Positions 58,320-63,935 of a stretch of DNA of 64,000 bases are shown here, in pieces. Where the stretch lies: positions 186,001 to 250,000 of the IMG/VR virus record IMGVR_UViG_3300027985_000843; one strand, written 5' to 3'. This stretch comes from a virus. The translations under genes and the position numbers were made by a program. The notes beneath the pieces were generated by a model. The model had not been told where the DNA came from and searched no databases. It was given only the letters and a program-made list of their open reading frames with translations. Within the stretch, counting starts at the first letter, position 1. Each line of letters opens with the position of its first letter.

Positions 58320-60397
<2,078 letters not shown>

Positions 60398-60873: not shown

Positions 60874-61461
60874 TCACGCGACGCGGAGGAAGGGAGCCCA
60901 CTCTTCGGGGGCCTGACGGGGATCGATTCTCGGACCGCACATGGGCAGAGTCTTCGGTTGTACCGGGACAGACAGCAGCTGCATCCCAGCCTCTTCCGGC
61001 GTGCGGTTCGCCTTATGGCTGTTGCAAGCAGTACAGGCCATCACAATGTTGTCCCACACAGTCTTGCCGCCCTTGCCACGAGGTACGACGTGTTCGTACT
61101 CCAGCTGGCTCATGGGCAGCACCGTGCCGCAATACTGACACGAGAAGTTGTCGCGCAGGCAGACGTTGAGCTTGCTGAACTTCACCCCGGACTTGACGGA
61201 TCGCACCTTCCGACGAAGGACGGCCACAGCCGGCACCTTGATCGTCAGGGACTCGGTGTCCGTTCCGATGACCTGCCGAAGAGCCCGACGCAACTCGGGG
61301 AACTCTCGGAGGTGATTGGGTCCGACGACGGTCACGATCTCGTCGTACTGAACGAGAACCTCGACCGTGCCACGGAACATTCGGGTGATGGCATCTTTCC
61401 AGTCCACAATCTCGTGGGGGATGTATGCCTTCGTAAGGATCAAAGTCTGCGTGAACGACAT
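60874..61461 (-). CDS. HNH endonuclease
   Basis: 195 aa, ATG 61461. N-terminal unknown part (1-85), then an HNH/zinc finger domain: C108-x2-C111, EYEHV (H124), N138 in WDNIVMAC, and C143-x2-C146 followed by NSHK. Typical of McrA-like and phage HNH nucleases (packaging-linked or homing). Here it lies just downstream of the tmRNA terminator, so a homing-type endonuclease next to an RNA gene is a possible origin. Its target is not known. Confidence 0.85.
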   Translation of the reverse strand: MSFTQTLILTKAYIPHEIVDWKDAITRMFRGTVEVLVQYDEIVTVVGPNHLREFPELRRALRQVIGTDTESLTIKVPAVAVLRRKVRSVKSGVKFSKLNVCLRDNFSCQYCGTVLPMSQLEYEHVVPRGKGGKTVWDNIVMACTACNSHKANRTPEEAGMQLLSVPVQPKTLPMCGPRIDPRQAPEEWAPFLRVA

Positions 61462-61526: not shown

Positions 61527-61553
61527 GAAAAAGCCCCCGACTCTCGGAGGCTT
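61527..61553 (-). terminator. Rho-independent terminator after tmRNA
   Basis: Hairpin AGCCTCCGA-GAG-TCGGGGGCT (9 bp, one G-U) directly after the tmRNA CCA, followed by TTTT. Clear intrinsic terminator. Confidence 0.85.
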
Positions 61554-61920
61554 TGGTGGAGATGTGGGGAATCGAACCCCAGTCCAAGACAGCTTCAAAG
61601 TCGTCTCGCTCGCGTGCGTAGCTGGTCTACCCTTCCAGCAGGGTCACTGGCCTTTCAACCAGCATGCGGGTATTCACATTAATCTCATCCGGTGGGCATC
61701 GGACCCCTTGCAGTTTTTCACCGGACCAGCTCGTGTGGTTTACACCTCGGGGGTACTCGAACTCCTCCCCCTTCGATGGCCTGTCTCTACCTAAGCAGCG
61801 ACGGGCATTGCAGAATTGTCATTCGCAATTGTGTTCTGTCTGGTTCTTCAAGGGGGGCCTGACAAACCCCCTGCACGATCAACGTCCTCTCCACTACCCT
61901 GTCGAAACCGATCATCCCCA
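61554..61920 (-). ncRNA. ssrA: Phage-encoded tmRNA (ssrA)
   Basis: 367 nt. 5' end GGGGATGATCGGTTTCGACA is the conserved one-piece tmRNA start; the 3' end is a tRNA-Ala-like T-arm (GGGGTTCGATTCCCC) and CATCTCC-A-CCA. Acceptor pairing GGGGATG/CATCTCC holds 7 bp with one G-U. A short tag ORF runs from resume codon GCG at 61826 to TAG at 61791: A-N-D-N-S-A-M-P-V-A-A. Ending Val-Ala-Ala, it fits ClpXP recognition. Rescues stalled ribosomes and marks nascent chains for proteolysis. Encoded CCA and terminator are present. SmpB was not found here, so host SmpB is assumed. Confidence 0.93.
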
Positions 61921-61934
61921 GAGGATACGGCCAT

Positions 61935-61965
61935 TGTAGACCCCCGAAGGGGGCGGACCGTACCT
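61935..61965 (-). other. GC hairpin between tRNA-Leu and tmRNA
   Basis: CCCCC-TTCG-GGGGG inner stem, with a longer imperfect outer pairing GGTACGG/CCGTATCC. Probably separates the two RNA precursors for processing; no U-run. Confidence 0.5.
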
Positions 61966-62051
61966 GGTGCTCAGGGAGGGACTTGAACCCTCACGTCCAC
62001 AAGGGACAACAGTTTTTGAAACTGCCGCGTCTGCCATTTCGCCACCTGAGC
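61966..62051 (-). tRNA. tRNA-Leu (CAA)
   Basis: 86 nt, acceptor GCTCAGG/CCTGAGC, encoded ACCA, loop TTCAAAA with anticodon CAA, long variable arm typical of Leu, T-arm GGGTTCAAGTCCC. Decodes UUG. Confidence 0.95.
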
Positions 62052-62370: not shown

Positions 62371-62372
62371 GG

Positions 62373-62446
62373 TGCGTCCCCCCGGATTTGAACCGAGACA
62401 CGCCCAGTTATGAGCTGGGGGCTCTGACCTATTGAGCTAGGGACGC
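62373..62446 (-). tRNA. tRNA with CAT anticodon (Met or Ile2)
   Basis: 74 nt, acceptor GCGTCCC/GGGACGC, D-arm GCTC-GAGC, anticodon stem CCCAG/CTGGG with loop CTCATAA, T-arm CTCGG/CCGGG. Terminal CC encoded but A replaced by the start codon of the next ORF. Could be elongator Met or lysidine-modified Ile; the sequence does not decide. Its 5' end contains the stop codon of the 63-aa ORF. Confidence 0.93.
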
Positions 62447-62659: not shown

Positions 62660-62865
62660 ACCCCCTCCAGCGTCCTGTGGATGGTCCGTATGGCCCACCC
62701 CACCGCATCTTTCAAGGGGACTCGATGGAACTCCTTGCCACACTCCGTACACTGACGGAAAAACTCTCTCGTCTTGAGGTCGACATGATTCCACAAGACG
62801 CCCTTACATCCCGGGTCCTCACAAGGAGGGCCTACGGGCTCGAACTGGGGGATATTTGTTGTCAT
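62647..62865 (-). CDS. Small Cys-containing protein starting on tRNA CCA
   Basis: 72 aa. ATG 62865 uses the terminal A of the tRNA-Leu(UAA) CCA as its first base. CEDPGCKG near 15 and QCTECGKEFHRVPLKD near 38 give a zinc knuckle. An in-frame extension to 63387 would cross two tRNAs and was rejected. Function unknown. Confidence 0.6.
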   Translation of the reverse strand: MTTNIPQFEPVGPPCEDPGCKGVLWNHVDLKTREFFRQCTECGKEFHRVPLKDAVGWAIRTIHRTLEGVPLD

Positions 62866-62951
62866 GGTGGCCCTCCCGGGACTCGAACCCGGACACCCAC
62901 GAGGGGTAGCGGGGTTTAAGCCCGCCGCGTCTGCCATTTCACCAGAGAGCC
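62865..62951 (-). tRNA. tRNA-Leu (TAA)
   Basis: 87 nt with CCA, acceptor GGCTCTC/GAGGGCC, loop CTTAAAC (anticodon TAA), long variable arm, T-arm CCGGGTTCGAGTCCCGG. One nt from tRNA-Val; CCA overlaps an ATG. Confidence 0.95.
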
Positions 62952-62952
62952 G

Positions 62953-63028
62953 TGGTAGCCGGTGCGAGGATCGAACTCGCCTAGAACTGCTTGTAAAACA
63001 GCCACCGTCGCCAGACGGTTCACCGGCC
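62953..63028 (-). tRNA. tRNA-Val (TAC)
   Basis: 76 nt, acceptor GGCCGGT/ACCGGCT (one G-U end pair), anticodon loop TTTACAA, encoded ACCA. Its first 9 nt contain the TGA of the 176-aa ORF. Confidence 0.94.
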
Positions 63029-63550
63029 GTGAAGCACCTCCTGCACCCACAAGGTGTTGAGGCGGAGAATCTCCTCCCCGATGCGACGATTGATCTCTCG
63101 GTGGGCCTCGTACATACGGGGCGTAAACTTCCTGTATCGCAAGTGATCCATAGCGGTGCAATCATTCTTGACCCTAGCCCACCCCCACTTGGCGTCAACC
63201 TTCTGACCCCACAACAGAAGAGGCACCGCTTCATACCCGTCGTAGACGTAGTACGGGACGGGTTCGGGGATGCCCTTGAACGCCCGTCGACGGCCAATTT
63301 TACGGGCGATCCACCGAACGACGCAGAAGCCATACTCGCGATCCCGGCCACCAGCTCCATACTCGAAGCCGATACGGCACTTCCCACGGTCGTACACCAG
63401 CTCCTTCTCGGTGAGAGGGCCGTGGATGCCGGAGGTCTCCCAGCTCAAGCCCATGAAGGTGTGAAAGGGTCGGTAGTTCAGGCTCAAGAACTCGACCATC
63501 CTGGCCTGAGCCTTGCGACTCCGGCAGGGCACTGCGATGGCGTAGCCCAT
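63020..63550 (-). CDS. Conserved unknown, stop codon inside tRNA-Val
   Basis: 176 aa, ATG 63550 with GAGG. Alpha/beta: MGYAIAVPCRSRKAQARMV, GIHGPLTEKELVYD, GFCVVRWIARKIGRR, then a basic C-terminal helix. No enzyme motif. TGA 63020-63022 is nt 7-9 of tRNA-Val, so mature tRNA release would give a non-stop transcript ending after a full codon. Neighbour: DUF3850-like gene. Confidence 0.65.
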   Translation of the reverse strand: MGYAIAVPCRSRKAQARMVEFLSLNYRPFHTFMGLSWETSGIHGPLTEKELVYDRGKCRIGFEYGAGGRDREYGFCVVRWIARKIGRRRAFKGIPEPVPYYVYDGYEAVPLLLWGQKVDAKWGWARVKNDCTAMDHLRYRKFTPRMYEAHREINRRIGEEILRLNTLWVQEVLHGR

Positions 63551-63848: not shown

Positions 63849-63935
63849 TGGTCGGCACGGGGGGAATTGAACCCCCACGGTCGCGAGGACCACCAGGGCC
63901 TAAACCTGGCGCGGCTGCCATTACGCCACGTGCCG
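63849..63935 (-). tRNA. tRNA-Leu (TAG)
   Basis: 87 nt, acceptor CGGCACG/CGTGCCG (C1-G72, unusual for Leu), loop TTTAGGC with anticodon TAG, long variable arm, GGGGGTTCAATTCCCCC T-arm, ACCA encoded. Confidence 0.93.

Follow-up and report, generated by a model that had tools for sequence, protein, structure and literature searches.

A one-piece tmRNA gene with conserved tag ends in the tRNA array of a jumbo phage

The bacterial RNA known as tmRNA rescues stalled ribosomes and labels their incomplete products for degradation. The window, by which we mean the whole stretch of 64,000 nucleotides that was analysed, belongs to a virus record of 371,739 bp, and carries on its minus strand a one-piece tmRNA gene (ssrA) of 366 nucleotides, at positions 61554..61919, with its CCA encoded. 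The gene has kept its structure and conserved determinants, its tag is constrained at the level of the peptide, and the partner genes are missing from the record. We assign a probability of about 0.8 to the reading that this is a functional phage tmRNA, retained by a lineage of jumbo phages within its translation kit.

The Rfam model RF00023, applied to the window with cmscan, matches over its full length (model positions 1-374) with a score of 114.5 bits and an E-value of 5.4e-44. The gathering score of the family is 47 bits: a full-length match so far above the cut-off excludes chance. ARAGORN finds the same ends, 61554-61919 on the minus strand, and reads the tag ANDNSAMPVAA*. The one-piece phage tmRNA of the original prediction is thus confirmed by both programs, which agree on its ends, and the tag that it had read is identical to that of ARAGORN. 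Its span, 61554-61920 with no strand given, is right at 61554; the gene ends at 61919 and lies on the minus strand.

The two ends of the molecule close into an acceptor stem. Its 5' strand GGGGAUG (61913..61919, minus), which holds G3 of the G3-U70 pair, is paired at 7/7 positions with 61558-61564, GGGGATG facing CATCTCC in the DNA. The segment 61554..61581 (minus) contains, as stem pairing and covariation indicate, the T arm TGGGG-TTCGATT-CCCCA, the 3' strand CAUCUCC, A73 and the encoded CCA. With its 7 bp, G3-U70, A73 and CCA, the acceptor is tRNA-Ala-like, and both the acceptor pairing and the tag frame of the predicted gene are present. The putative pseudoknots PK1-PK4 are covered by the full-length alignment to RF00023 as a whole. 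The tag reading frame, GCG AAT GAC AAT TCT GCA ATG CCC GTC GCT GCT TAG (61791..61826, minus; gene positions 94-129), called by ARAGORN, is open inside the gene from the GCG resume codon to the UAG stop. An A stands four bases 5' of the resume codon, in the upstream string GAACACAATT; its equivalent in E. coli, A86, is needed for frame selection by the tmRNA (PMC2481249). Directly after the CCA, a terminator-like hairpin with a U-run (61527..61553, minus; -17.1 kcal/mol, z -3.26) agrees in its fold with the intrinsic terminator that had been predicted, but it is not among the terminators listed by a consensus scan. No consensus sigma-70 promoter was found near the tmRNA. An HNH endonuclease gene lies directly downstream (60874-61461, minus).

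Read in the sense of transcription, an array of predicted tRNAs ends with the tmRNA gene. Upstream of it, all on the minus strand and all recognised by both ARAGORN and Rfam, lie tRNA-Leu (CAA) at 61965..62051, 45 nucleotides away, tRNA-Met (CAU) at 62371..62446, tRNA-Leu (UAA) at 62865..62951 and tRNA-Leu (UAG) at 63849..63935. A tRNA-like call with an unclear anticodon (62953-63042, minus) comes from ARAGORN, with no Rfam match. The array extends past the window to about G000:C1:276,034, and it is not one transcript, because some of the tRNAs are separated by predicted genes on the plus strand. The whole record has 47 tRNA calls, covering all 20 amino acids, and also encodes a portal, GroEL, a ribonucleotide reductase and an NAD-dependent DNA ligase; the GroEL homologue, 552 amino acids long, lies in the window at 58320-59978 (minus).

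Relatives of the portal occur in many large IMG/VR contigs, in Tunturiibacter phage Tunturi_5 and in Bacillus phage G. Among 42 contigs whose portal is related, 19 have a tmRNA that scores above the cut-off, with three near-duplicate pairs among these, and some of the related contigs are fragments, in which the absence of a tmRNA is weak evidence. The gene may be dispensable, as about half of these contigs, many of them fragments, are without one. Where it is present, it sits in the same kind of tRNA array. When the region and the tmRNA were compared with phage records by blastn, the only matches were to tRNAs or were short ones at the 3' end. An attempt to assign a host by the 3' end of the tmRNA was abandoned: the matches are scattered over Actinobacteria, Clostridia and others, and are not diagnostic.

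A tree of phage tmRNAs with 57 sampled bacteria, chosen by similarity to the 3' end of the window tmRNA and with many phyla missing, places 15 phage tmRNAs, including that of the window, in one group with support 96, apart from these bacteria; the tmRNAs of the relatives L087 and L091 fall among bacteria. Distances between tmRNAs are correlated with distances between portals (Mantel rho 0.45, p 0.002), and the tmRNAs of the relatives are only about 40-60% identical to that of the window. The nearest, at 60% identity, belongs to the relative G034, whose portal is only 45% identical, so that some exchange of tmRNAs between phages is likely. On these comparisons, the pattern fits a mostly long residence in phages with some separate captures. 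It could also be proposed that the gene is a passenger, a host ssrA that was captured along with tRNAs and has little use today: genes for tmRNA and for tRNAs move together, the gene is lacking in about half of the relatives, and the grouping of L087 and L091 with bacterial tmRNAs suggests separate captures. We find this improbable in view of what has been conserved at such low identity, namely strong covariation, an invariant G3-U70 and changes confined to third positions in the ANDN codons.

The conservation of the RNA can be followed pair by pair. In 21 phage tmRNAs, from the window, its relatives and phage G, all 7 acceptor positions are paired, and neither G3-U70 nor A73 varies. Over the acceptor and T-stem of 19 phage tmRNAs, a count that omits L105, whose T arm departs from the fixed frame, and L101, which is the same stretch as L100, 100% of the cells are paired and both sides have changed at 8 of 12 pairs. 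With the acceptor register taken as the best-pairing one within six offsets, the covariation score of these 19 is 0.63, versus 0.15 when shuffled, and slid registers also score far below. The G3-U70 pair stays constant while the adjoining pairs covary.

Most tags consist of ANDN, four to nine variable residues and Ala-Ala. The ANDN tags, 16 in all, were gathered by a pattern that demands ANDN; ARAGORN independently called all but one, that of L104, which it missed and which reads ANDNALAAAA. The first four codons of these 16 tmRNAs change at third positions only, the middle of the tag varies freely, and the terminal Ala codons again change at third positions only, L098 apart: 15/16 of the tags end in Ala-Ala and that of L098 in LVA. 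All 16 have the A four bases before the resume codon. Changes restricted in this way imply that the peptide is held, and not the RNA alone, which argues for a tag that is translated and under selection, rather than a relic or a tagless decoy. Besides L098, the non-typical tags are those of L278, read by eye as ANSSDYGLRAVA, of phage G, AKLNITNNELQVA, and of L087, EKTN... ending AVV; the L087 tmRNA (L087:1504-1913, minus) has a predicted 28-residue tag, EKTNTVNFCAMFSALNLAAIHQAEEAVV, that does not end in Ala-Ala. A search with a degenerate pattern for the exact window tag gave no match in other viral contigs.

A tmRNA of this kind might instead be an inhibitor that competes as a decoy with the tmRNA of the host, and inhibition of the endogenous tmRNA by a phage form has been reported, for the tag-less tmRNA of mycobacteriophage DS6A (PMC11915505). 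A decoy would need neither tag frame, nor A at -4, nor Ala-Ala end, and all are retained here, which makes this reading quite unlikely. Attachment-site remnants are normally 3' pieces. That the gene is such a remnant is very hard to believe, although integration into tmRNA genes is common and well known (PMC11915505) and one distant protein of the phage weakly matches Phage_integrase: the gene is whole, with its 5' half, tag and terminator-like hairpin, it stands in the tRNA array of a 372-kb phage, and relatives have their tmRNA in the same kind of array.

If the gene is functional, it must find its partners elsewhere. The original prediction called for a look at SmpB in the rest of the genome: no recognisable SmpB (PF01668), the mark of a self-contained phage trans-translation system, was found in the record, by a search that recovered SmpB from 10 of 14 control genomes, and none was found in the 42 related virus contigs. 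No recognisable ClpP, AlaRS or SspB was found in the record either, and so the tmRNA, if it works at all, depends on SmpB, AlaRS and proteases of the host; EF-Tu is encoded among the phage tRNAs. When mixed protein sets were scanned with NCBIfam, paralogous models dominated the results.

Expression, charging, tagging, proteolysis and benefit to the phage would then proceed as follows. The tmRNA would be transcribed together with the phage tRNAs, or beside them; the AlaRS of the host would charge the G3-U70 acceptor with alanine, host SmpB would bind the tmRNA, and EF-Tu, from the host or the phage, would deliver it to ribosomes stalled on broken mRNAs. The ribosome would resume at GCG, append (A)ANDNSAMPVAA, halt at UAG and be recycled, and the fragment would be delivered, by its Ala-Ala end, to ClpXP of the host or to a related protease. 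The phage would probably gain in that ribosomes are kept circulating while nucleases of the phage or of host defences cut mRNAs. The earlier proposal that the phage supplements host trans-translation, with tagging for ClpXP, fits what can be read from the genomes: determinants that are intact and conserved, an Ala-Ala tag end, and SmpB, AlaRS, ClpP and SspB not found in the phage.

Other tmRNAs are already known from phages, and that of the window is a further example. The statement that only a few phages carry one overstates the rarity: one survey counts tmRNAs in 402 of 18,146 phage genomes (PMC9004378), and they are present in about half of the relatives studied here. The window tmRNA is like the bacterial one-piece tmRNA (ssrA, RF00023) in its full-length match, G3-U70, -4 A and Ala-Ala tag end, but the phage that carries it has no recognisable SmpB, ClpP or AlaRS. 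Bacillus phage G, a jumbo phage with a related portal, also has a tmRNA between tRNAs, annotated in GenBank (NC_023719 gene 553), which is shorter (309 nt), has its own tag and is distant in the tree. Huge phages with tmRNA, tRNAs and elongation factors have been surveyed (Al-Shayeb et al. 2020, PMC7162821), but that survey reports SmpB, and none was found here or in the 42 relatives. The marine methylophage Melnitz encodes a tmRNA too (PMC9004378), although a permuted, two-piece one linked to a glutamine riboswitch, whereas ours is a one-piece gene in a tRNA array. In titles and abstracts, a phrase search for phage-encoded tmRNA returned no functional study, and a limited literature search found no description of the tag constraint pattern of this lineage, or of the absence of SmpB throughout it. 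A lineage of jumbo phages has thus retained, without SmpB, a tmRNA that appears to work, the ends of its tag constrained as peptide and the middle free, so that what a phage tmRNA does can be tested in cultured relatives, for instance in phage G, which bears one itself.

The phage EF-Tu gene lies outside the window (G000:C1:261103-262269, minus; L019:12103-13269). Its switch I reads RDENKTVTI, versus RGITI in the aligned bacterial EF-Tu, a form altered in this way in 10 of 23 viral EF-Tus, the others having RGITI or RGVTI. Lit cuts the Gly59-Ile60 bond of EF-Tu (PMC3014915); the replacement of RGITI by RDENKTVTI removes this bond and retains the next Thr. It is conceivable, if rather doubtful, that the tmRNA, the tRNAs for all 20 amino acids and an EF-Tu without the Lit bond form a phage-owned, defence-resistant elongation set, which would let translation continue despite the destruction of tRNAs, mRNAs or EF-Tu by defences of the host. 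We considered whether EF-Tu and tmRNA are linked, and set the idea aside: EF-Tu occurs in 2 of 45 related records, both bearing a tmRNA, and among 22 records that encode a close EF-Tu, several of them short fragments, only 5 have a tmRNA, so that 5/22 against 2/2 shows no clear association. The EF-Tu of one relative (L253, G035:C1 around 102,600) has a frame broken near its 3' end, by a frameshift or an assembly error.

The record also has a tRNA with anticodon UUA on the plus strand (G000:C1:1355-1430; L009:1355-1430), with an Rfam tRNA score of 54.3 bits. Such a tRNA would read the stop codon UAA, and a similar call is found in phage G.
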